Assembly (NCBI GenBank): GCA_037043015.1
Contig: CM073325.1
Coordinates: forward strand, 6,985,001 to 7,049,000
Direction: 5' to 3'
DNA from: Bryum argenteum
Lineage: Eukaryota; Streptophyta; Bryopsida; Bryales; Bryaceae
Length of the DNA: 64,000 nt
This document shows positions 5,932 to 63,992 of the stretch, piece after piece; position 1 is the stretch's first letter; each line of letters opens with the position of its first letter. Below the pieces are notes generated by a model. That model saw only the letters and a list, made by a program, of their open reading frames with translations, made no database searches and was not told where the DNA came from. The translations under genes were made by a program, and so were the position numbers.

Positions 5932-8900
5932 ATGAAATCTCCGTATACATGGGCGAGTTCCTCGTCGTGGCCGTTGCCTTCGTGGCCGTTGCCTTTGTCA
6001 GCACCGACAAGTTTCTTCACTTGTCAATCTGATTCCGAGATGGAGCTTTCGGAATCTAGTCACTTTAGCAAATTGGATGAGTCCGAGACTTCCTCGAAGC
6101 GGCGGTTAGCTGAGGCCAACTATGAGTACTTCGCGAAGTTGCGGAACCACCCTGAATGGGGTGAGTTCTTTCTACCTTCGGGAGATAATATAAGAGTGGG
6201 AAAGAGAATCAGCCATGGAGCCCAAGCGGATATACATGAAGCAGCTCTGATAAACCCTAGTAAGTACTTTAATAATGAGTTCCTTATGGTGGTGAAGGTG
6301 ATGAAAGGCGATGGTCCTCTCCAAGCATATCAAGCGCAATGGCCTATTGGGTTGTTGACATACAGTTTCAACTACAGACAGAAAATCATCAGAGAGAAAA
6401 TGCTTGATTGGCGGCCGCCGCCGTTGTTGAATGTTTGGGGAGCAGTTTTGTTGGAGGACGAGAGATTGAGGGGACGATTTGCTTTCGTGATGGGCAGAAT
6501 GTGGGGTGATTTGCGTTTGTTGATTGATCGCACAATGAAAGCGAGGCCTAAGAAGGGCCCTTTCAAAATGGACAATGCCACCCAGTTCATGTTGACAATA
6601 GCCAAAGATATGGACACCCTTTACACCGACCATGGTATAGTACACAGAGACTTGAAAGCCTCTAATGTGCTTGTCCAAAAAAGAGAGTATCACCCAAGAG
6701 AGTATCACCTTGGAGAGATGCCGATTACAGCTGATGAGGTGTTTGTTGGACACAATGAATTGGTAAAAGTAGAAGTAGCTGATTTTGAGAGTTCTATGGT
6801 TGTGTTGGGTACATCCTTTTGGAGGGCACCGGAGATTTATCAACAAACGAAGAATAGGATTCAAGGTGCGGAAGTGACATTCACTACTATGGCGGATGTA
6901 TATAGCTACGGCATGACATGTTATGAGATTGTAACAGGTCGCATTCCATTTGATCGTAAGTATGAACCATGTAAGTGGGATGAAGTTTTGAGAGGACGCC
7001 GTCCAACTCTTCCTAGTGAATTGCCGTTGTTTTTGAGGAACATCATAGAGAGATGTTGGCAACATGATCCGACGGAGAGGCCAAACTTTTACGAAATCCA
7101 GGAATTGCTAAAGTTCAAGCCGAATATACCTAACTTGCTAGAGTGTAGGCAGAGTCATCCAACAAGTGTTGTGATTGACAATGAAATCCATGATACTGCA
7201 ACTATTATTAGGGTATATCTCTTCACCTAATTACTTTGATTAATGTTTGCCTTACATTCCAGTTGTGATTACGTTATCAGTAGTTTTGTTAGTATCTATC
7301 AATTTTTTTGGACTGTTGTGATTGTAGAATTTGTTCAAGTACATCAAGTTTATGGTTAACATTTGTTCAATGTGTACAAGGTATTGATTTTTACCATCAT
7401 TGAAACTTTGAGTTAGACATTTCCAATGTTTGTAGGTCGTACAATGGAGGCATTGTTTGTCTTTGACTTTGCTTCAAGTCATGGAGGAACTAGCTTGGAT
7501 GGGACAACAAACATTACGAGCTACTACATCGGATACGAGTGATCAAATTGTGTATTGTAAGTCATTATTTTGACACTTTTAAATGGAAAATTGTAAGAGA
7601 GTTCTTATAAATTTGTAGACTTCATATGAACTTCTTCAAAATTGTTTTGCAACCTAATATTGTATCGTACATGTTTCATTATAGATGTGGAGGTCCTCGG
7701 TCCTGAAGGTGTGAAATGTGATGCATATGATGTGGCACACATTGAGAGGGTAAGCATTAATATGATGGGGCATGTAGTATCCATTATACATACTTCTTTA
7801 CTGTGTTTTCATATCTATATTTTCAATAAAGTATCATATTAACAATGTTATGTGAAAATTTTGTTTAGAGTTTCATATTACGTTCATGAGTTATGAATAG
7901 AGCATTGATAGAATTAACTGTCTTTGGTGCACAGACTTTGAGCACGAAGATGACAAAGGTGTTTCACTGGCAAGGACGGTGTATACAAAATGATGTCATC
8001 GAGCACACTTATGTCCTAGAGATAACCATGTATTATATTAATGACTTCCTCACATTTTTAGAACTCTTCTGCGATATGGGCCTCGAAGTTGTCAAAGCCG
8101 AAAAATGGGTTCACAATGGTTGCGGTTGCGTGCAGTATGCGATGCTTGTGCACGGCAAGAAGGGTTGTAGTGTCTATTCACTTTTGCAAGGGTTAGCCAT
8201 TCAGTCACACCGTCGCTGCTATATAGTATTTCACAGCTTGGTTAGAGGGTATGTTGATATACACCTAGAGAACTTCAAACGGGTTATGGCTTCATTTTGC
8301 CCTTCAAGCATGGAAGAATGTCCTTTTGAGAGAGCTACCAGGCCTAAGTCGCCTTGGATGTTTCTTACGGAAGTGGAGTATCACGGCTATCCCTTAGATG
8401 CTAATCATCAAGCAGGATATGTTCTTCTTAAAGAAGGACATATGCATCACGGCGATGCGTTAGATGTTATTCATCGAACAGGATATTGCTCTGCTTCAAG
8501 GTCTTCTCCTCAATGGATTGATACATTATGGCTTTCAAATCAACAAAAACGTGAACATGTGGAGGATCAAGTGAAGTTCAGAGGTTTACCTTTGTTTTTC
8601 AAGGTAATTCCTCAAACTCAATCTTGTCATGTATTCTCATTGAGTTGGATGGAAGTTTTTGTAATATTCTGGTGTGAGTTTCTCTTTGAGAGAAGGAGGC
8701 ATCAACTAACGCTATTACATAGTGCACAAACTACAAATGACGATATCAGTAGACCTATATAAAAATATGATTGCCTTGTAGGATCTAGTACTAATTGGAT
8801 AATCGTGATATTCAATTGGATGTTGAATCATGTGTAGATTGAGAACAACGGAGAAGTTACTTCGATCTGTCTAAGGCGGAGGGCTTTGCAGACAACAAAC

Positions 8901-18765: not shown

Positions 18766-21678
18766 ATGGCGGGTCCCTCGTCGTTTCCGTTGCTCTCATC
18801 AGCACCAACAAGTTCCTTCAGTTGTCAAACTGATTCGGAGATGGAGTTTTCGGAAGCTAGTCACTTTAGCGTATTGGATGAGTCCGCGACTTCCTCGAAC
18901 TGGTCAGCTGAGGCCAACTATGAGTACTTCACTGAGTTGAAGAATCACCCTGAATGGGGCGGTTTCTTCGGAGATTGGGGACAAGAAATAAGAGTGGGAA
19001 AGAAAATCAGCCATGGAGCACAAGCGGATATATATGAAGCTCGTAAGGGAGAGGATGGTGAGTTTGATTTGGTGGTGAAGGTGATGAAAGGCGATGTTCC
19101 TCTCCAAGCATTTCAAGCCCAATGGCCTACTGGGTTGTTGTCATCTCGTTTCAACTCCATACGGACAGGGTATGATCTGCCGTCGTTGTTTAATATTCTG
19201 GGAGGAATATTGTTGGAGGAGGAGAGGTTGAGGGGAAGGTTTGCCTTCGTGATGTTTAGACGGTGGGGTGATTTGCGGCTATTGATTGATCGTCGAATGA
19301 AAGCAAGGCGTTCTACAGATGGCCCTTTCTCCATCGACCAAGCCATTCATTTGATGTTGACAATAGCGAAAGATATGGACATCCTTCACACTAAGCACAA
19401 TATTGTACATAGAGACTTGAAAGCCTCTAATGTTTTAGTCCGGAAAAAAAAGTATTCTCATGGAGAGATGATTGGAGATGAGGGGATGGTCAGAGACGAT
19501 GAAATGGTAAAAGTAGAAATAGCGGATTTTGAGAGTTCGAGGTTAGTGATGGGTACATCATTTTGGAGAGCACCTGAGATTTTTCAACAATCGGAGAATA
19601 GGGTTCCAAGTGCAGAAGTGACATTCACTACTATGGCAGATGTATATAGTTACGGCATGACATGTTATGAGATTGTAACAGGTCGGATCCCGTTTGATTC
19701 TGAGCATGAACCATGTACGTGGGATGAAGTTTTGAGTGGGTGCCGTCCAACTATTCCTAGAAAAGTGCCGATGTTTTTGAGGAACATTATAAAGAGTTGT
19801 TGGCATCCTGATCCAATAGAAAGGCCAAACTTTTACGAGATAGTGGAATTGCTAAAATACAAGCCAAAGATACCTAACTTGCTAGTGTGTAGTCAAAGTC
19901 ATCCAACAAGTGTTGTGATTGACAATGAATTACATGAAAGTGCAACTATTATTAAGGTATATTACTTCACCTCTTTTCTTTGATATTTTTTTTGCCACAT
20001 ACTCCATTTGTGAATTATTATCTTTGGTTTTGTTAGTATCAATGAGTTATCCTAGATTGTTAAGATTGTAAAATTGTTGAGATTGAACAAATTGTAGAAT
20101 CTGTTCAAATAGTTCTTGTTTATGGTTAGATTTGTTCAACGTGTTTAAGGTAATGATTTTTACCATCATGGAGGATAGTTTGGTTATCATTGAAATTTTG
20201 AGTCAAACATTTCCAATGTTTGTAGGTTGCACAATGGAGGCATTGTTTGTCATTGACTTTGCTTCAAGTCATGGAGGATCTAGCATGCATGGAACTGTGG
20301 ACATTGAGAGCTATTACAGCGTATACAAGTGAAAAAGTTCTGTATTGTAAGTTATTATTTTTGACTTTTTTAGGTAGAGAGGTTTAAGAGAGTTCTTATA
20401 AATTTTTGGACTTCATGTTAATATCTTCAAAATGATTTTGCAACCTAACATTGTTTGATTCATGTTTTATCATAGATGTGGAGGTAGTCGATGATGATGG
20501 TGTGAAAGTATGTGATACAACTGATGTTGCACGCATTGAGAGGGTAAGCATTGTAATAGAAGGGTATCTAGTATCCATTCTACATAGTTCTTCGTTGGAT
20601 TTTCATATATATATATATAATCAATGAAGTATGATATTAACAATGTTATGTGAAAAGTTTGTTTATAGTTTATTATCATTTCAATAAATTATGAAAAGAG
20701 CATTGATGGAAGTAATTGTCTTTGGTGCACAGGCTTTGAGGACGAAGATGAGAAAGATATTTCATTGGCATGGGAGTTATATAGAAAATGATGTCATCAA
20801 GCAAACTTATGTCCTAGAGATAACCATGTATGATAATCATTATTTCCTCAAATTTTTAGAAGTCTTACGCGAATTGGGTCTCCAAGTTTTCAAAGCAGAA
20901 AAATGGGTTGGCAATGGTTGCATGCACTATGCATTGCTTGTGCACGGCAAGAAGGGTTATTGTTATTCTCTTCTAAAAGGATTGGCCTCTGGATGGGTTC
21001 TTCGCTGCTATATAGTATTTCACAAGTTGGTTAGAGGGGATGTTGATATACACTTGGACAACTTCAAACGTGTTATGGCTTCGGTTTGCCCTCCAAGCAT
21101 GGATGAATGTCCTTTTGAAGTGGCTTTAACTAATTCTTCTCCTGAAATGAAGTATGTTCTTCTTGAAGAAGGAAATATACATCACAAAGATGCCATAGAC
21201 GTTCTTCGTCAAACAGGATATTGCCCTAGTTCAAGTTCTCCGCAATGGGTTGATACATCAAGGCTTTCAAGTAGACAAAAACCTCAACATGAGAAGGATC
21301 TGGTGAAGTTCAGAGGTTTACCTTTATTTTTCAAGGTTATTCCTCAAACTCAATCTTGTCTTGTATTCTCATTGAAATTTGATGAATGTTTTTCTTAATA
21401 TTCTGGTGTGAGTTTCTCTTTGAGATGAAGTGGCATCTACTAATGCTATCTCTTAATACGTGAAGTACAAGTGACAATGTCAGTCTATGTAAGGATATGA
21501 TTGTATTGTAGGTTCTAGTACGAGTAAGAAAATCAAGGGGTTTAATTGGATGTTGAGTGATGTGCAGATTGAATACGGAGAAGTTACTTCGATCTGTCTA
21601 AGACGGAGGGCTTTACAGAGGGTACTATTTTCATCAAAGTGGGAGAGTTTCAAGTCAAGAGTCCGAGAATTTACTTAG
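18766..21678 (+). CDS. TKL-like protein kinase with novel C-terminal domain, copy 2
   Basis: Five exons: 18766-19956, 20226-20346, 20476-20543, 20733-21335 and 21568-21678 (697 codons plus stop). All introns are GT-AG and the frame stays open throughout. The start ATG opens MAGPSSFPLLSSAPTSSF; the codon two places upstream is GTG, not ATG. The kinase domain (about residues 60-385) shows SHGAQADIYEA, LVVKVMK, HRDLKASNVLV, IADFESS (DFG replaced by DFE), WRAPEIF and DVYSYGMTCYEIVTGRIPF. The conserved unknown domain in exon 4 runs from RKIFHWHGSYIEND to KFRGLPLFFK. The final exon is short and basic (EVTSICLRRRALQ). HRD and the beta-3 lysine are kept, so activity is plausible. This is the best reference copy of the family in the window. 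Confidence 0.8.
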
Positions 21679-37338: not shown

Positions 37339-40268
37339 TCAAACTCCCTCGCTTTGATGAAAATAGTCATGGGGTATCCTCTGCAAAGCCCATCGTCTTA
37401 GACAAATTGAAGTAACGAATCGGCATGAAATCTGCACATTTGATAACATCCAATTAAACATCATGAGTTACCTACTCATACTACAACCTTCACGACTATC
37501 ATACTCCTACTCATATGCCATTGTCATTTGTACTTTACGTATTAAGTGATAGCATTAGTTGATACTCAAATCAAAGAGAAACTCACATGATAATATTACA
37601 AAAACCTTCCAACCAACTACAATGAGAATAGAGAGTAAGATTGAGTTTGAGGAATTACCATGAAAAATAAAGGTAAACCTCTGAATTTCACCAGATCCTT
37701 GTGATGTTGAGGTTTTTGTCTACTTAAAAGCCATGATGTACTACTCCATTGAGTAAAACTTGAACCAGAGCAATATCCCGATCGACGAAGAACATCTATG
37801 GCAGCGGTATGACGTATATTTCCTTCTTCAAGAGGAACATACTCTTTGAGAGAAAATTTAGGCATAGCTTGATTAAAAGGACATGCTCTCATACTTGAAG
37901 GGCAAAATGAAGCCATAACACGCTTGAAGTTATGCAATTGTATATCAACATCCTCTGTGACCAGCTTGTGAAATACTATATAGAAATTAAGCAGCCCTAT
38001 AGAGGCCATGCCTTTCAGAAGAGCATCCACACAACAACCCTTCTTATTGTGCACAAGCATTGCATAGTGCAAGCAACCATTCTGAAGCCATGCTTCGGCT
38101 TTGAGAACTAGGAGATTCACTTCACAACAAACTTCTAAAAATTTGTGAAAGTCTTCTGTTTGGCCAACAAATAAGTTATCACTGGTTATCTCAATGACAT
38201 AAGTTCCCTTGATATCATCATCGGTTTGTATATACCTCCCATTCAAGTCAAATATCTTTCTCAAATTCCTCCTCAAAGCCTGTGCACCAAAGCAAATTAC
38301 TCTTATAAATGCTTATTTCATAATTCATTTACATAACAATAAATCCTTCATGAACTATTCACATAACATTGTTATTTATATACTTTATTTAGATAATATA
38401 GATAAAAATCCAATCAACATCTATGTAGAATAAATACAAGATACCATTTCGAATCAATGCTTACCCTCTCAAGTTGTGCAACAACAGATGGCCCTTGAAG
38501 TCTCACTCCATTTCCGTCGCCTACCTCCAGATCTATGATATAACATGAATGATACAATGTAAGGTTGCAAAAAAATTCTGAATATATTAACATGAAGTAC
38601 ACAAATTTAAAAGAACTCTCTTAAACCTTCCCACTTAAAAAAGTCAAAATAATAACTTACCATACACAACTTTTTCACTTGTATGCGTTGTAGTAGCTTT
38701 GAATGTCAGCACTTCCTGCCATGCTAGGTCCTCCATGACCTGAAGCAAAGTCAATGACGAACAATGCCTCCATTGTTCAACCTACAAACATTGGAATTGT
38801 GTAAATCAAAGTTTCAGAGATAGCCCAACTAGCCTCCATGATGGTAAAAATCAATACCTTGCACACATTGATCAAATGCTAAACACAAACAAGATCTACT
38901 TGAACAAATTCGACAATGGCAACAATCTAAGATAACTCATTGATACTAACAAAACCAAAGATAATAATTCACAAATGAAATATGAAGCAAAAAAACAAAT
39001 CAAAGTAAAGAGGTGAAGTGGAAGGGGTAAAGAGGAGAAGTGATATACCTTAATAATAGTTGCATATTCATGGATTTCATTGTCAATCACAACACTTGTT
39101 GGATGACTTTGCCTACACTCTAGCAAGTTAGGTATCTTCTGCTTATACTTGAGTAATTTCTTTATCTCGTTAAAGTTTGGCCTTTCCTTCGGATTAGGAT
39201 GCCAACAACTCTTTATAATGCTCCTCAAAAACAACGGCACTTCACTAGGAAGAGTTGGACGATGTCCACTCAAAACTTCACCCCATGTACATGGTTCATA
39301 CTTTGGGTCAAATGGAATGCGACCCGTTACAATCTCATAACACGTCATGCCGTAACTATATACATCTGTCATAGTAGTGAATGTCACTTCCGCACTTGGA
39401 ACCCTATTCTCCAATTGTTGAAAGATCTCAGGTGCTCTCCAAAATGATGTACCCATCACTAACCCAGAGCTCTCAAAATCAGCTACAATTACATTAATCA
39501 ATTTATCATTTGTAACCATCCCCTCATCTTGAATCATGTCACCACAAGAATACTTCCTAGCTAGAACTAGCACATTGGAGGCTTTCAAGTCCCTGTGTAT
39601 AATATTATGCTTGGTGTGAAGTGTGTCCATATCTTTGGCTATTGTCAACATCAAATCGATGGCTTGTTCAAAGCAGAAAGGGCCATCTGCGGAACACCTT
39701 CCTTTCATTTGACGATCAATCAATAACCGCAAATCACCCCACCGTCTCAACATCACGAAGGCAAACCTTCCCCTCAACGGCTCCTCCTCCAACAATATTC
39801 CTCCCAAAATATTAAAATGCGGCACATCGTACCCATACCGATTCTAGTCCAATTCCTAGTCCGCATATAATTGGAGCGAGATGACAACAACCCAATAGGC
39901 CATTGCGCTTGAAATGCTTGGAGAGGAACATCGCCCTTCATCACCTTCACCGCCATATGAAACTTACCATCCTCTCCTATACGAGCTTCATATATATCCG
40001 CTTGTGCTCCATGGCTGATTTTCTTTCCCAATCTTATCGATCGTCCCCAACTTAGGAAGAAACCACCATATTCAGTGTTTTTCTGCAACTGAGCGAAGTA
40101 CTCAAAGTTGTCTTCAGCTGACCAGTTCGAGGAAGTCGAGGAAGTCGCGGACTCATCCAACTCGCTAAAGTGACTAGTTTCCGAAAATTCCATCTCGGAA
40201 TCAGTTTGACAACTGAAGTAAGTTGTCGGTGCTGACGGGACCAACGGACACGAGGAGGGACCCGCCAT
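37339..40268 (-). pseudogene. Kinase with novel C-terminal domain, copy 3, frameshifted
   Basis: Exons on the minus strand are 40268-39049, 38781-38661, 38532-38465, 38279-37659 and 37431-37339. Splice sites match copies 1 and 2. The start MAGPSSCPLVPSAP and the motifs HRDLKASNVLV, VADFESS and WRAPEIF are present. Exon 1 is 1,220 bases, not a multiple of three, and the frame breaks near 39,825-39,870, just after the QAQWPIGLLSSR stretch and before FNILGG. The segment there is longer than in copy 2. Either the gene is dead or one base is wrong in the assembly. All downstream exons stay open, so the break may be recent. The conserved exon 4 domain (RKIFDLNGRYIQ to FRGLPLFF) is intact. Confidence 0.7.
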
Positions 40269-50501: not shown

Positions 50502-52303
50502 TCACAACGAGCGCTCCCATGCGAGACGCAAGCGATGAAACGAGCTGTCATCGTAGCTTCCGAACACGCTGCGAGTATAGTTCCGCAACCCATAGTCCCA
50601 CACTTCGCAATACCGCTTCTCCCAGTCTGGAGGTTTCACGGCGTGCGTTCCCAGGTCTGGCACGCGGTCCTTGGAGCCGCGGTTACGGTCCTCAGTCCAG
50701 TCCGCGACGTAAGTGGCCGCGCGGCGCCGGAACTTCACCTTGAACTCGTCCCACACCTGAAACTTGTAGTGGTTGATCACGGCCACCCCGCCAGTAATCT
50801 TCACATTTTCGTACCCCTCCTGCAAACTGAAATGGTGGATCACGTTCGAGACGTTCGTGGCCACGGCGTCCAGCTTCACGATCGACTTATGCCGCTCCGG
50901 ATTCCTCATCCGGCAAGTGTACCCCTGCGTCACCCCCTGCGCAGGCGAGCTCGTGCGCATCGACGGCCCGTAGTTGTTACAAAACGTCATGATCTGACCC
51001 ACTGGCTTCGTCCCCACTGCGTCCGCGATGAATTTCGTGAGCTGGGATCCGTTCTGATACTTCTTGTTCGGAAAGAAAAACTCATCGACGTCGATGTAGA
51101 GCATCCACTCGCACTCCGGCCTCGCAAGCAACGAGCAGTGCGAGAATCCCGCTTCTTGCGTCTTCACCCACGGCCATGGATGCTTAACAACGTTAAAACT
51201 GCGATCATTTAAGCTTGAGATTGTGTCCTCGAGGTCGTCTTCGCTATTGTTATCATACAGAAAGAATTTCGTCACGCCGAGGTGCGTGTGGTAATATACC
51301 CATTCGTCCAAAAACTTCGCACCGTTGTAAATCATCGTGCACGCACAAACATCATGACGAGCTTTTGTGCTTACAAGCAAATCATCATGTGGGAAATAAC
51401 GCGCAACCGACGGAAGTGAACGGCCGTCGAATTTCACGGTGATTTTCGCGGGGTGCGGAAACGTTTCAGGTGGGTGCGGGCACCGGAGTACTTCTTGCGC
51501 TTGCGAAGTGACTTGCGTCTCGATCTCGTCATTGAAGACGCATCGAAGAAGCTGAAGATCCTCGCCCCGGGTGTTGTCCATCCCGTGGACGAACACTACC
51601 ACGTCGTCTACCGTGGAAAAAGCTTCGTACACCACATGGTTTGTGGAACTCCACTGAATTCCCGGCTGTTCACCATGGGGCCGAATTTCCTGCCCTTGGT
51701 TTAGTTCGATGGTTAGCGAGCTAACGTTCCATGCGGGCCCAGTCGGTGGCGGACCACACAGAAGCGCGGCGCCTCGCCCTTCCTGGGTCTTGTGAAGCGC
51801 CACCGGGGAGGTGTAGCGGTCACCAAATCGGCACTTGAGCCCATCTTTCGTTGGAAACTTCGTTCCTGAGTGGAGCCGCAGTAAAACCAAAACCTCCCCG
51901 GAGTCGAAGATCACGACGTCTTCGATACGGATACGAGTCGAACCCTGCCCGTTCGAAGGTACCATACTTGGTGCCATGGTGACAAGCGCCTGGTTCAATC
52001 GCCCATCTGCACAATCCATGGCAGTGAATCAAAATTCCAGTACACATCGTATTGGCTGCGACTGCATTCAAGGTGGTCAATCGCATCAATGGACTGAGCA
52101 AATGACTTACTTTGGCTCGTAGGTTCGTAGCTAGTGAAGTTGACGATTGCAAGAAAGGCAAGTGCTACAAGACTGTAGCAGAATCTTCGCAACCAGAGAG
52201 ATTGTCGCAGTTTCAAGTCTCCCGAATTCTGCTTCGTCACCGATGCTTTCGTTCCAAACTCCAGGTCCGCTCCAGCCACCAATGTGCTCGTCGAGTGCGC
52301 CAT
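50502..52303 (-). CDS. Glycosyltransferase family 92 (DUF23) protein
   Basis: Two exons on the minus strand: 52303-52111 and 52006-50502, 565 residues. The two open frames are out of register, but a 104-base intron with donor GTAAGT and acceptor TTGTGCAG joins them in phase. The N-terminus has a signal anchor (RRFCYSLVALAFLAIVNF), giving a type II Golgi membrane protein. The catalytic region contains HDVCACTMIYNGAKFLDEWV, YHTHLGVTKFFLYDNNS and the metal-binding LYIDVDEFFFPNK (about 51,081-51,098). Then come GYTCRMR and IHHFSLQEGY. These are hallmarks of GT92, which includes the plant beta-1,4-galactan synthases; this one looks closer to the general plant GT92 group, so the acceptor is unknown. 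The coding region is GC-rich against AT-rich surroundings. Confidence 0.85.
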
Positions 52304-52779: not shown

Positions 52780-53239
52780 TTAACCCCTAATGAGTCGTAA
52801 AAACCGAATCGGTCTTTTGAGGTTTTGGGCAGGTTCGTTTAAGAAGTCAAATTGGAATTTGGGGCTAAAATTTTTAATGGACGAGGGTAATGTCATGATC
52901 TATGTGTGGTAAATTTTTTTTACCAAATTACTTTTTTTACTACAGTTATGGCAAATTTTTGTTTTGACGCCCAAGTGGGGCAGGGCGGGTAGGGCCCGTG
53001 GCCAACGAGAGCGCTCGACATAATTGGGGCAGTATGGAGGGTTTGCTTATGAAATTAGAGGTGGGCAGGAGGCTTACAATGGGTTTAGCTGACACCCATG
53101 ATTTTAGCAAAGTGAATGCCAGTTAGTAGTCCAACCGCCATTGTAATTGCACAATCCGTTGGCTCTTTTTTATATGTGGATGGAGAAAACGCCTCTTTTT
53201 ACATGACTGTTGAAAGAACAAACTTTCAAAATCTTGCAA

Positions 53240-54592
53240 ATGGAAAATCAAATTTTGTGCACCATGGAGAACATTCAACCTCACAATAGCATTCCAAGTG
53301 CAAATCTCATGCCCATTCCACTCTTTCATTGCACTAAGTGTTTAGAATTCAACAACACATGCTGCAATTGTCGTGAATTTGCACTACAAAACACTCCAGA
53401 GCTTCCTGTAGTGAGAGAAGAATTGCAAGGAGATGGGGTACACACATGTCTCAATATTGGTATAGAGTTTGTGAATCTAGTGGGACCAGTCGAGGGGAAG
53501 AGAGGTGACAGCAGCTTTGCGCTTCCTCCATCAAAGATTCGCCGCTTAGGAGGCCTGTCTGTGGAAGATTCGACGTCGCACCAGGGGAATTCGGAGGTGA
53601 CAGCAGCTTTCTTGGGGTCCAGCGCTGTGCCGCATCAACCTGCAGGAAGCGGATTCGAGTTAGCAAGGCCAACCGGGATTCGGCAGACACAAAGATTCAT
53701 TGAACCGAGAGCAGAGACTGATCGGGGTGGATTAACTGTGCAGGTACCTGCATCGGCGGCACTGCAGACAGCAACGGCCGGAGGTGAAAACTCGGAGGAG
53801 ACTGATCGACGAGGTGTGGAGGTACCTGCGTCGGCGGTGCTCAGAGATCTAGTAGTCGGCGGTTGCAGGTCTCGGCGGTTCCAAGGTTCTACCGATCTAG
53901 TACTCGGCGGTTGCACAGCGGCATCGTTGGGCTCATCTCCAGCGGTCGTAGTCGGCGGTTGCACAGCCGCATCATTGGTCTCCTCTCCGGTGGTCGTAGT
54001 CGGCGGTTGCACAGTTGCATCTTTGGCGGTCGTAGTCGGCGAGTCCAGCTCCGACCCGGGCGGAGGTTGCTTCTCAGGCAGCGCTTGGAAGGCTGATGCG
54101 GTGAATTCCAGCTGCGTCGCTGGTGCGGTCATTTCCAGCTGTGCCGACGGGGCTGGTTGGCTTCAAGGCGACGGCCTGATCGATAGCGGAAGGGCCATTG
54201 CAGGTGGACAACAGCTTGACGGAGGGCGGAGCCTCCTAGGCGACAGACCCAAGGTTCATGAGCTTGAGGGCGGAGATTCCTCACCGACCGGATCTGCACA
54301 TCAAGATTCAATTCGATCTGGTTTGATCTTGTGGGCCGAGAGAAGGAATCTAAGTAGGCAACAAGTTACTAGCATTTTGCTTTTGCTAGATCCAGCACAC
54401 TTGCGTGCTTTGCCACGTCGTAAGAAAACCAAACCTTGGCCACATGCACCGGATGCTAAAACTTATAGACACCACTTCTACAGGCAAGTGGCTCATATCC
54501 TAGGGTGGAGGGAGCAACATAGTTTTGAGGAAGATTTCACAAACCTTGTGAGGAGCTATTGGCCAGAGAAGCAAGATGCCACGCCGCACTAA
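53240..54592 (+). CDS. Accessory ORF of the piggyBac element, unknown function
   Basis: An open frame of 450 codons from the first ATG (the frame opens at 53,210 with TTG). The N-terminus has a small Cys cluster (CTKCLEFNNTCCNC). The middle is GC-rich with imperfect repeats of GGCTAASLxSSP, about 48 bp each, between 53,853 and 54,048. The C-terminal 90 residues look like a folded, basic domain (LSRQQVTSILLLLDP, then RRKKTKPWPHAPDAKTYRHH, then WREQHSFEEDFTNLVRSYWPE) that I do not recognise. The stop overlaps the ATG-side of the next frame at 54,576. It may be a DNA-binding partner of the transposase, or captured host sequence. Confidence 0.55.
   Translation: MENQILCTMENIQPHNSIPSANLMPIPLFHCTKCLEFNNTCCNCREFALQNTPELPVVREELQGDGVHTCLNIGIEFVNLVGPVEGKRGDSSFALPPSKIRRLGGLSVEDSTSHQGNSEVTAAFLGSSAVPHQPAGSGFELARPTGIRQTQRFIEPRAETDRGGLTVQVPASAALQTATAGGENSEETDRRGVEVPASAVLRDLVVGGCRSRRFQGSTDLVLGGCTAASLGSSPAVVVGGCTAASLVSSPVVVVGGCTVASLAVVVGESSSDPGGGCFSGSAWKADAVNSSCVAGAVISSCADGAGWLQGDGLIDSGRAIAGGQQLDGGRSLLGDRPKVHELEGGDSSPTGSAHQDSIRSGLILWAERRNLSRQQVTSILLLLDPAHLRALPRRKKTKPWPHAPDAKTYRHHFYRQVAHILGWREQHSFEEDFTNLVRSYWPEKQDATPH
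53853..54048 (+). repeat. Four imperfect repeats of about 48 bp inside the accessory ORF
   Basis: Units begin GTAGTCGGCGGTTGCA or GTACTCGGCGGTTGCA at about 53,851, 53,900, 53,948 and 53,996; the last is shorter. They keep the reading frame. Confidence 0.75.
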
Positions 54593-57402
54593 GAGAGGAA
54601 AGGAGATGGAGTGGAATAACATTCCAGTTAAACGAAGTGAGAGATTGCAACATGAAGTTAGTCCAACAAACTCACCTCCAACTTCGCCGCTTCTTTGGGA
54701 TCACAATGTGCACATTGAAGTTGGAGACCTCCCGGATCTTGGGCACGGGGTAGAGTTGTTCCAATTCCGGGACACGGACATTCCATTCAATAAAGACTTC
54801 CTTTTTTGTCTCAAGAGGCGGATCGTGAATACCAATGTGATGAGAAACTATTCTATAGTTCGGATCAATCAGACAATGAATTCTCAAGAGGAGGAGGTTT
54901 AGAGGAGATGTTATGGCCACCAGAAATGCTCCTCCTAGCAACAAACTATGGACAAAGACAATCAAGAAAACGTCATGCAATTGATTCACAAGATCTAGGC
55001 AATGAGCAGCTTACAGGAGAGGCTCTGCAGAGGCTTGTAGGAGCAAGTACAAGCAATGAAGCCCCGTCAGATCTTGCAAACGATGGAGAAGCTTCTGAAA
55101 TGGCTGTTGGGGAAGTTGAAGTGGGTGAATCTAGACAGGCGCTCGGTGTTGGGCTCACCGATCAGAGCCTGAAACTTTGCGACGGAGAAACGCGCCGAGC
55201 GCACGACCTGCCAGGCGCATGCGGAGCTCAGCCTCAGTCCAGCGTGGCGCGGCGAACCTGGCGCCAACCGGGCCAACCTCGGGCCAGCCTGTTGCCGTCA
55301 AGACCAGGCCCAGATGGGGCGCTTTCGGTAGGGCAAGAGGCTGCCAGCAGGGCAAGTGCCGGTCACGCCCCTGCCAGCTCCAGCCGGGCAAGCTGGCTCC
55401 GACCCCGGAGCAGGGAAAGCTCCGGTCACGCCCCTGCCAGCGCCAGCCTGACAAGCCAGCGAGGACCCCGCGATGACATGCCCGTTCCGGCCAGTGGAGA
55501 TGGCCCGTCTAGGGCTCCAGCCACATCGGCTCTTATTGGGGGGTCTCCACCAATCGCATGCAAGGAAGGTGGGATGGGGCAGCCAGTAGGCGAGCGCACT
55601 CAGCGAGGGCAACGAAGAAGGACTTCGGCTCCAGTAGAAGTTGCGCTACATCCAGGTATGTTATTTCCCCAAAATGACATGGTAGATGATATTGAACCAC
55701 AAAACTTGGATAATGGAAACATAAGTGAAACGTTGCCGGACATCGTGAGTGATGAAGAAAGTGATGCTGAAAACACAAACATGGGTCTAAAATGGGAATA
55801 TAGAGATGAAACATGGGAGGATCCAAGTATTTTCTATCGACCCATGCCTAAGCCTTTTAGTGGAAGAAGAAGAGGTTTTTCTAATGAATATCGTGTGCTT
55901 CCATCATTCCGGGCCATGTTTGCCTTGTTTTGGACACCGGCTATCTTGAGCACAATTGTGCTTGAGACCAACCGTATGCCAATTCACCATTAGATGGAAA
56001 TGGTAACACAAGGGTGGATCTAGGTGGTTTGATTTGACCATTGATGAACTCATGGCTTTTTTTGCCATTTCTCTTTACATTGGTTTGAAACCCCAAGCTA
56101 ACTATCATAGTTATTGGATGAGGGATTCATTATGGCATTGTCCAATAATTTCCAATATTTTGCCTAAGTACCGATTTCAAGATCTAAGAAGATGTTTACA
56201 CCTAACAAACATGGATGGAATTCAACGAATGATCCGGTTTTGACAAAATTGGGCAAACGCGATGGTTAGTAAACGCAATTGCGGGAAATTGCAAAAATCA
56301 TGGTGTTTGGGTAAGCATCTAACCGTGGATGAAATGATGATTAGATATAAAGGAAGTTACTCACCCATCCGCCAATACATGCCCAAAAAGCCCCAAAAAT
56401 GGGGCTTGAAGGTATGGTGTTTAGCGGATTCCGTTACTAAATATGTTTGGAACTTTGAAGTGTATTGTGGTAAGGAGAATGTTGTGGTGCCCTCCGTAGG
56501 AGATTTGCCTAAACCGGGCCATGTTGTAGGAGAAGCAAGTTTAGCTCAAAATGTTGTATTGAGGCTTGTTGATGGATTGTGGGATTTGGGCCATTGTGTG
56601 ACGGTTGATAATTATTTTTCTAGCATTCCATTGTTTACCACACTTTTGAGTCATGGCATGTATGCATGTGGGACTGTTAGATCAAACCGCATTGGATTGC
56701 CCTCATCATTGAAAAATGTGAAGGCTTTCAAAAATGCTCCACAAGGGACTACTTTGTGGAAAATGCATGTTTCTCGTGGGATTTCTTGTGTCATGTGGAA
56801 AGACAAGAGGCCGGTGTTGTTGCTTTCCACACATAGTATGCCAATCCAAGCACCTTGTGAGAGGAGAGTGGTTACAGTTCCTCGGAGAAATGGTGCGACC
56901 CGAGATTTGATTCAAACATCTCCAGTGCTTTTTGACTACACCACCCACATGCGTGGGGTGGACGTGGCTGATCAGTTGCGAGCTAGCTATTCATGCCAGG
57001 TACGTTCTCACAAATGGTGGCATCGAATTTTTTTTTTTCCTATTAGATGTCACAGTTGTGAACATGTACATAATTTATTTAGATTGTTTGGCTAATGGCA
57101 ATCCAAAAGCTCCACCACGTACACCCATGACCCACTTGCAATTCAAGCAAGGGTTATGTGAGGCACTTTTGGTAGGTTGGCAATGTCGGTCAACTGCACC
57201 TAGCGATTTACCACCACCTCCACGGCTCCCCGTAATTTGCGTGCCGTCTTATACTGCTCTCCGAAGGTATTGTGTTGTGTGCAAAGTCAAAAAACCGCAT
57301 TACTATTGTCACAAATGCGGGGATAAATGGATGTGCCTAAATGAGGGGTGTTATGAGCGGTGGCACACTGATTTGGCACAACGCCGGCAACGCAACACTT
57401 GA
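54576..57402 (+). pseudogene. piggyBac transposase, frameshifted
   Basis: Segments in order: 54,576-54,810 (N-terminal, MPRRTKRGKEMEWNN); about 54,806-55,965 (acidic region ending in FWTPAILSTIVLETNRM); about 56,020-56,230 (DLTIDELMAFFAISLYIGLK); about 56,300-57,030 (catalytic core); and 57,020-57,402. The three catalytic aspartates of the family are visible in TVDEMM (56,328), VDNYFSSIPL (56,607) and RGVDVADQ (56,961). The C-terminus is a Cys/His cross-brace (CVVCKVKKPHYYCHKCG, then CLNEGCYERWH), as in other piggyBac proteins. Frame breaks lie near 54,805 (T run), 55,970-56,010, 56,225-56,305 (at least two) and 57,028 (T run). This copy cannot make a full-length enzyme as read. Confidence 0.88.
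55140..55600 (+). other. GC-rich insertion within the transposase N-terminal region
   Basis: A Pro/Ala/Ser/Arg-rich segment (SRASWLRPRSRESSGHAPAS and similar) in otherwise AT-rich DNA. It has two direct repeats around GGTCACGCCCCTGCCAGC at 55,352 and 55,422. The known family has an acidic, not a GC-rich, spacer here, so this may be captured host sequence or a locally expanded disordered region. Confidence 0.5.
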
Positions 57403-57504
57403 ATTTAGGTAATATCTCCTCTTTCTTTTCTTGTGCATTTGTAATGTTTTTTGGCAAACACTCACTTGAGCACTTATGGCAAAATGTGCAAGGCAATTTC
57501 ATTT

Positions 57505-57665
57505 TTTTTTGTTATACGATTTTAGGTTCCAACTATACCCTCACCAATTTTCATCAACATTGGACACTTTTACAATTGACACTTTCATACTTACTTTCCC
57601 AAATTTCTTGTTCTTATTATTATACAATTTTAGGTTCTAATTATACTCTCACCAATTTATGTGGG
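57505..57665. repeat. Imperfect direct repeat in the piggyBac 3' region
   Basis: The block TTATACGATTTTAGGTTCC...CTCACCAATTT at 57,512-57,550 recurs at 57,618-57,658 with a few changes. It lies between the transposase stop and the right end. Confidence 0.65.
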
Positions 57666-58649
57666 TTCAATTTCAGGCACTATTTCTGTTTGTCATTTCT
57701 ACTGGACAGGGACAGTGAAGAATTATGGACTTATTTCGAGCATGCTGGGTGGTCGAATGGTGAATGCCGGTTAGTCGCCACCTTGGAGATTGCCACGAGG
57801 GCGGAGTCCACGTCGTCAGCAAAGGGTGGAGGTGGCATTCTGCCTTGAACCGGATCACCTCACCAAGGGCTTCCATGAATTTCGCCCAGCAAGGAGGGGG
57901 GGGGGGGGCATAAAAGCCTGACACCCATGGTCATCATTGCCCCCCTGGCCACATCAATGCCCCCATGGCGTCATCACCTCGAAAGGAGGGGGGTACAGGG
58001 GTCCCAACCCGAGTCCTTCAAGGGGTCCAGCCTTGGGAGGCTGCCCTTGCAATGTATGCCTGAATGTGCCATTTTCCTCCCAAAATTTTTGCAAAAATTC
58101 GAGATTTTTGTTTTTCTGAATTTTTTTTTCCACATGGTTTGGAATCTGAAAATGGCATGTGCCCACCGCTGCGATTTGAAAAAAAATTATTTTTGGGTGC
58201 CCTCCTCAAGAAAACACAAAAACTTGACAATTCTAGGCTTTTTACACCTCCTCCCACTAGAAAAATTAGATCAAGGTTCTAAAAGTTGATCCAATATCCC
58301 AAATTTTGCATGCATGTGGAGAGCTCACTTACCTAGGAAAAAAATATGAGCAAAATGTTTGGGGTAACAAACTCCAATTCCCCCTTTGCACCATGGAGAG
58401 TATGCCTTCCGGGCAATGCCCAAAAAAACAAATTTTGAAACTTTGAATGTTATAATCTCGGTAATGGTAAACATCCAACGGTCAAAAATTGGGACACTAC
58501 CTCCAAATTGGGTTTTTTACTAGATCCTACGGTTAAAACTCTAAAATTAGCAAAAAAATTGGCCCAAACCGCCGGGAGTGCATAGTGGTGTAAAATCAGC
58601 GTTTTTGGTTTTCAAGCTCCCAAAAAACAAGCGACTCATTAGGGGTTAA

Positions 58650-63580: not shown

Positions 63581-63992
63581 TGCCAGCCCGATTGAGCTCC
63601 CGCTCGCCCGATTGAGCTCCCGCTCGCCCGATTGAGCTCCCGCTCGCCCGATTGAGCTCCCGCTCGCCCGATTGAGCTCCCGCTCGCCCGATTGAGCTCC
63701 CGCTCGCCCGATTGAGCTCCCGCTCGCCCGATTGAGCTCCCGCTCGCCCGATTGAGCTCCCGCTCGCCCGATTGAGCTCCCGCTCGCTCGATTGAGCTCC
63801 CGCTCGCCCGATTCACCTCCCGCTCGCCCGATTGAGCTCCCGCTCGCCCGATTGAGCTCCCGCTCGCCCGATTGAGCTCCCGCTCGCCCGATTGAGCTCC
63901 CGCTCGCCCGATTGAGCTCCCGCTCGCCCGATTGAGCTCCCGCTCGCCCGATTGAGCTCCCGCTCGCCCGATTGAGCTCTCGCTCGCCCGAT
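63581..63992. repeat. 20-bp minisatellite, about 20 copies
   Basis: The unit CGCTCGCCCGATTGAGCTCC is repeated head to tail with very few variants (units at 63,781, 63,801 and 63,961 differ). It is GC-rich in AT-rich DNA. The last 8 bases of the window leave the repeat (ATAGGGTCAT from 63,991). Because 20 is not a multiple of 3, any open frame repeats every 60 bases; the long minus-strand frames here are artefacts. Confidence 0.95.

Follow-up and report, generated by a model that had tools for sequence, protein, structure and literature searches.

The element described here, with a conserved second gene that is kept under selection across divergent subfamilies, raises the question of what a piggyBac transposon might gain from an accessory protein. 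PiggyBac is in wide use for gene transfer, and the form of it that is best known encodes a single protein. The element lies in a window (the whole stretch of DNA analyzed, 64,000 nucleotides, C5:6985001-7049000) of the Bryum argenteum assembly, which comprises 258.8 Mb in 25 contigs, with at least 252.3 Mb in C1 to C11. Apart from the element, the window contains three related protein kinase frames (PF07714; 5890-7227, 18760-19980, and 38899-39825), each accompanied by a frame of 219 to 289 amino acids without a Pfam match (7893-8759, 20691-21395, and 37620-38276 [minus]); kinase and companion frames constitute a repeated two-gene unit. At 63586-63992, a 20-bp unit is repeated ~20 times with 98% similarity between copies, and the array is open in one minus-strand frame.

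A preliminary description of the window had claimed a 5,862-bp element with perfect 14-bp inverted ends between TTAA sites, and its boundaries, 52784 and 58645, proved exact to the base. The left TTAA (52780-52783) is followed by the left terminal inverted repeat, CCCCTAATGAGTCG (52784-52797, plus strand), which is also present on C11. The right terminal inverted repeat (58632-58645, minus strand) is an exact 14-bp inverted match to it and is followed by the right TTAA (58646-58649). With up to two mismatches allowed, the 14-mer was found at only two sites in the window, both of them element ends; shuffled controls gave a mean of 0.15 occurrences, and 0 of 100 shuffles reached two. In the piggyBac superfamily, the short inverted ends start with CCC, as do CCCCTAATGAGTCG and the ends of related copies in this genome, CCCCTAATGATC and CCCCTAAAGGCCCA.

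Next, the target site was examined. The window flanks were fused at one TTAA and used as a genome query, and the best 40 of 705 candidates were scored. This yielded 41 matches, 38 of which spanned the junction at 75 to 84% identity; of the other three, two were the halves of the window site itself and one started at the junction. Six of the 38 cluster in a single stretch of C3 (7.61 to 7.67 Mb). Four of these 38 paralogues of the target repeat were fetched, and all four carry a single TTAA at the uninterrupted site. One TTAA at the empty paralogous sites, set against the two that flank the element, indicates that the element inserted into a repeat and that TTAA was duplicated. These sites confirm the window element as a true insertion of piggyBac type. 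An empty-site test with a copy on C4 (L070/L083) was weak, its relatives matching only up to ~8 bases beyond the TTAA, and we therefore rely on the window's own empty site. Excision of piggyBac without a footprint, through hairpin ends, is a mechanism treated in the available part of PMC3878927. On its left, the insertion adjoins a long single-frame glycosyltransferase family 92 gene on the minus strand (50505-52019; PF01697, E value of 2.6e-29).

Since piggyBac is best known from animals, the contig might belong to a plant-dwelling animal or fungus. The preliminary description had assigned the element to a plant genome and named contamination as one finding that would refute it; tested here, the plant host was upheld. 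Contig C5 itself bears clusters of RuBisCO small-subunit genes (PF00101) at 4.0 to 4.7 Mb, and a LEAFY gene at 15.18 Mb. The 62 genome-wide matches to PF00101 are crowded in a C5 cluster at 4.0 to 4.2 Mb, with smaller groups on C2. The C5 LEAFY domain differs from PDB entry 4bhk at 4 of 106 residues (E value of 3.7e-72), while the other four LEAFY chains found matched it with E values of 2.7e-50 or worse. We take 4bhk to be LEAFY of Physcomitrella and 2vy1 to be LEAFY of Arabidopsis. The D and C at two positions of the C5 domain are presumably moss-type residues, and residue D312 of LEAFY is linked with moss. Moreover, copies of the family are present on each of C1 to C11, so that a misjoin would have to have hit every large contig. 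We consider the probability of contamination to be close to nil, and the element is treated below as part of the moss genome.

The transposase gene occupies 54576-57402 on the plus strand and was compared with the C11 copy and with the copy at locus L049. In the window it is frameshifted and is split into pieces at 54576-54902, 54806-55993, 56034-56243, 56262-57095, and 56932-57402, a point absent from the preliminary description. All three transposase motifs that had been reported there (TVDEMM, VDNYFSSIPL, and RGVDVADQ) reside in the 277-residue frame at 56262-57095, which matched Pfam PF13843 (DDE_Tnp_1_7) with an E value of 1.9e-45; a second stretch, 56034-56240, matched the same family with an E value of 2.4e-10. 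The reported Cys-rich tail is present as well (CVVC..YYCHKC..MC..CY..WH, 57262-57402, plus strand), though in another frame (56932-57402) than the catalytic motifs. Because the transposase is frameshifted, the window copy cannot be called complete; "complete-ended," the term originally chosen, is right.

A near-identical copy of the window element, on C11, measures 5,867 bp and has 99.3% identity to it (5,852 aligned bases, 40 mismatches, and 11 gaps). There, the catalytic and Cys-rich parts share one frame, which has no stop from midway through the N-terminal part onward; one stop interrupts the transposase at residue 129, counting from the overlap ATG described below, within the N-terminal part. 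Introns were considered as an explanation for every frame break in the window copy and were rejected, because the near-identical C11 element has no break in its catalytic and Cys-rich regions. With its transposase frame broken, the window copy would be immobile alone and mobile only in trans.

The C11 protein matched the piggyBac transposase structure 6x67 (E value of 1.2e-27) and piggyBat, 9c0f (E value of 2.7e-26), with the Asp motifs in register. For an alignment within the family, 20 of 33 transposase-bearing loci were tried; L013 was dropped because of an in-frame stop. The 19 remaining rows represent 18 places, L007 and L049 being one and the same. The first catalytic Asp codon (56328-56330, plus strand, in TVDEMM) aligns with LTIDEQL of 6x67 and is Asp in 19 of 19 rows. 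The second (56607-56609, plus strand, in TVDNYFSSIPL) and the third and fourth (within 56961-56972, plus strand, in RGVDVADQ) were placed by the PDB alignment; Asp occupies the second and third positions in all 19 rows and the fourth in 18, with N in L028. The element thus carries a PF13843 transposase with the catalytic Asp residues of T. ni piggyBac. Over the catalytic region, the median omega was 0.08 (range, 0.06 to 0.24) in the 78 of 171 pairs with a finite dS greater than 0.1. The Cys-rich tail, a candidate for the C-terminal zinc-binding domain of the superfamily, gave only a weak RING-like match in Pfam (E value of 0.05); its Cys/His spacing resembles that of the piggyBat tail, but the tail stretch aligned at a below-zero score.

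A search of the host assembly for other copies flanked by TTAA, which had been suggested together with the original claim, was then carried out, and copies bounded by both ends were found. The exact 18-mer of TTAA plus terminal repeat occurs four times in the assembly, bounding the window and C11 elements, so the ends do recur as boundaries; another 61 elements, the end-to-end copies of the L050 subfamily, have related ends. With the 277-residue frame as query and the best 140 of 740 candidates scored, 147 matches merged to at least 140 transposase loci; given this scoring depth, the number is a lower bound. A stop-free frame of at least 780 amino acids is present at 35 of the 140 listed loci, and one of at least 880 amino acids at 18; some of the 35, for example, L050 with a frame of 786 codons, leave the frame before the Cys-rich tail. 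One relative with an open transposase is L049 (C5:17.02 Mb), an element of 5,902 bp with ends CCCCTAATGATC, TTAA on both sides, and a 915-residue open frame, whose transposase matched PF13843 with an E value of 3.7e-74.

For the L050 subfamily, whose ends are CCCCTAAAGGCCCA, search patterns that included the TTAA matched exactly at 61 5' ends and 62 3' ends. All 61 of the 5' ends pair with a 3' end, giving elements of 5,690 to 5,708 bp across C1 to C11, a minority of which were read internally; 61 of the 62 3' ends are paired, and the one left over is on C6. The 24 bases preceding the TTAA were all different in the 20 5' ends that were cut out (drawn from 41, from the best 40 of 641 candidates). 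Over ~3.7 kb, ten copies of the subfamily differ at 17 substitution columns, several of them beside gaps, and at 15 indel places, mostly homopolymers. The L050-subfamily copies are young, and their similarity suggests that the subfamily may be currently active. With 61 identically ended copies, this moss genome also provides a natural record of recent target choice. At C2:1907221-1918618, two end-to-end copies of this subfamily stand head to head with one common TTAA, which indicates that one copy probably inserted precisely at a TTAA flanking the other. After KWWHR (L050, 4947-5021; also L011, L019, and L021), a T run comprises 6, 7, 8, or 10 T's among near-identical copies, and hence these copies do not all read the C-terminal part in one frame; slippage, sequencing error, or frameshifting may be responsible. 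Contig C1, the largest (at least 40.46 Mb), is poor in elements. From its size relative to the genome, about 9.5 of the 61 L050-type copies would be expected there, and 1 is present (binomial probability of 4e-4); of the 140 listed transposase loci, about 22 would be expected, and 4 are present (1e-6). C1 might represent an unusual type of chromosome, such as a sex chromosome.

Upstream of the transposase lies a second gene that the preliminary description had overlooked. This frame, ORF1, is open for 460 amino acids (53210-54592, plus strand); 53210 is a TTG picked by the program, and the first ATG is at ~53240. The C11 copy of ORF1 has one inner stop. The frame has two parts. In tblastn comparisons with the loci in hand, the first ~370 residues matched only the near-identical C11 copy; this N-terminal part is repetitive and family specific. 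The last ~85 residues (54326-54589, plus strand; core, LRSLPVRKKSRAWP..P.ANNYRHHFYRQ.AHILGW) showed 51 to 61% amino acid identity to other subfamilies in the same comparisons, with one piece of L058 at 37%. In a genome search with this C-terminal domain, every candidate scored (the best 150 of 356) matched.

The single-ORF layout that is typical, although not defining, of piggyBac is therefore not the layout of this element, unless ORF1 is a chance frame or a dead passenger in an ordinary single-gene piggyBac. Insect piggyBac does have one ORF, according to the portion of PMC10512250 at hand, and the ORF1 N terminus is repetitive without conservation between subfamilies. The position of the domain, however, argues otherwise. 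It lies upstream of the transposase, on the same strand and within 6 kb, at 113 of the 140 listed transposase loci (1,367 to 4,134 bp; median, 1,654), while the control positions, on the opposite strand or downstream within 6 kb, gave 0 of 140 each. Conversely, 113 of the 150 listed ORF1 matches have a listed transposase downstream, and 27 of the 140 transposase loci are without an ORF1 domain among the matches listed; the scoring depth of the two lists may account for misses in either direction.

The sequence of the domain points in the same direction. In the domain alignment, amino acid identity to the window copy was 48 to 56%, and among eight sequences, the mean pN/pS was 0.39 (28 pairs). 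Ten of these pairs were saturated; in the 18 with finite dS, omega was 0.10 to 0.31. Most of these dS values were above 1, and the omega values are for that reason rough. By these ratios, the ORF1 domain appears to be under purifying selection. Against this stands L049, in which most of the ORF1 domain is gone and only its end is left, despite intact ends and the long open frame; loss of ORF1 in an otherwise intact-looking element suggests that ORF1 may be dispensable or may act in trans. Taken with the linkage, the conservation leaves a single-gene element with a passenger frame strongly disfavored, at a very low probability.

ORF1 was then compared with known protein families. The domain had no significant match in Pfam (best E value of 0.045, to DUF629, for one of eight members), none in NCBIfam (two sequences), and none in the PDB with the window sequence, where the best E value with a profile was 0.97. 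No relative was found among the pattern stretches from viral contigs (48 for the transposase and 33 for the ORF1 domain), and no relative of ORF1 was found among 35 pattern stretches from prokaryote genome contigs.

ORF1 and the transposase gene overlap. The transposase reading frame of the window copy, MPRRTKRGKE-MEW, opens with an ATG at 54576 within the end of ORF1, in the +1 frame, and the ORF1 stop lies at 54590-54592, which defines a 17-nucleotide overlap (54576-54592, plus strand). Comparison of subfamilies showed a +1-frame ATG, 28 or 31 nucleotides past a V-R-S-x-W-P-like motif, in 9 of the 10 readable sequences: the window and C11 copies taken together, L049, L050 (with 20 kin), L059, L020, L084, L085, L086, and L087. 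The last four sequences end soon past this ATG, and L088 ends too early to be read. In the 10th, L058, ACG replaces the ATG, and the frame is otherwise alike.

Such a constant relation could also mean that ORF1 is the N-terminal part of a very long transposase, made through a programmed +1 frameshift within the conserved overlap or an undetected splice. The +1 relation of the frames holds in all 10 readable sequences, even in L058 with its ACG, and candidate introns of variable presence (GT-AG, between a short first exon and the MEW start) occur just before MEW in L050 and L049, as a fusion would have it. The same region also speaks for separate starts: a transposase-frame ATG is kept at the same place in nine of the 10, removal of the candidate L050 intron would not bring ORF1 into the transposase frame, and no intron precedes MEW in the window or C11 copy, nor is the candidate intron found in L020. 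We regard a fused protein as unlikely, although appreciably less so than a passenger frame.

The reading that we favor, and judge probable, is that of a cut-and-paste transposon of the piggyBac superfamily in the moss nuclear genome, belonging to a lineage that encodes two proteins, of which ORF1 would be an accessory. Cut-and-paste movement at TTAA follows from superfamily membership (TTAA duplication, terminal inverted repeats, the PF13843 match, and the Asp residues). From the linkage, the selection, and the conserved overlap, we infer the production of two proteins and a role for ORF1 in assisting transposition. The element would be transcribed as one unit, from which ORF1 and the transposase would be produced as separate proteins, and the transposase start may be reached through re-initiation or leaky scanning over the overlap. 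For T. ni piggyBac, end binding, cutting, and joining at TTAA are established; the moss transposase would likewise bind the ends, cut, and join at TTAA. ORF1 may aid the transposase in DNA binding, nuclear entry, or evasion of silencing. More tentatively, at somewhat below even chances, mosses may harbor a distinct lineage of piggyBac elements that depends on, or benefits from, a second protein, which would belong to an undescribed domain family and be encoded in a conserved overlapping frame; this would be among the first clearly documented lineages in land plants and may still be active. The moss elements are also a possible plant-adapted gene-transfer tool.

The superfamily had been called little described in land plants at the outset. 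This agrees with the open-license PMC literature, with the reservation that PiggyBac labels or mentions do exist in the consulted text of PMC4438587, PMC6890710, and PMC10813416. In the sections at hand, PMC4438587 names PiggyBac as one of the superfamilies present in every group that it covers, including land plants, PMC6890710 reports 1,230 PiggyBac pieces from C-fern (122,417 bp, averaging about 100 bp), and PMC10813416 refers to piggyBac isolated from insects, fungi, and plants. The corresponding excerpt of PMC5963040 applies the label to the haptophyte alga Tisochrysis lutea, that of PMC3325252 states that PiggyBac was not found in switchgrass BAC ends, and the word occurs once each in the accessible text of papers on grass pea, bamboo, and cork oak. 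A paper on the moss N. japonicum was set aside as a piggyBac report, its available text containing only "piggybacking." No description of a moss piggyBac or of a two-gene piggyBac was found, by title and abstract opening, among the open-license PMC papers listed. The larger result is a piggyBac lineage of moss, within a known superfamily, that carries a second conserved gene.

Among known systems, PIF/Harbinger is a two-gene DNA transposon that encodes a transposase and a Myb-like protein. The moss elements resemble it in having a putative accessory gene beside the transposase, conserved between families; they differ in transposase superfamily and target, and the moss ORF1 domain has no significant Pfam match. 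Likeness to piggyBat (9c0f) extends over 415 aligned residues of the catalytic region, at the E value given above, whereas no significant relative of ORF1 was found among PDB sequences. Insect piggyBac has inverted ends that also start with CCC. The structures 6x67 and 6x68, which we take to be from Trichoplusia ni, represent a related transposase with four Asp residues in the same motifs, a TTAA target, and a Cys-rich tail. Plant and algal surveys share the superfamily label with the moss elements, and the text of theirs that was compared (PMC6890710, PMC4438587, and PMC5963040) gives no element structure. In the consulted portion of PMC10512250, T. ni piggyBac measures 2,475 bp with a single ORF, compared with 5.7 to 5.9 kb and two ORFs in the moss elements, whose transposase is about 900 amino acids long (L049), has a long N-terminal part, and is overlapped at its start by the second conserved gene.
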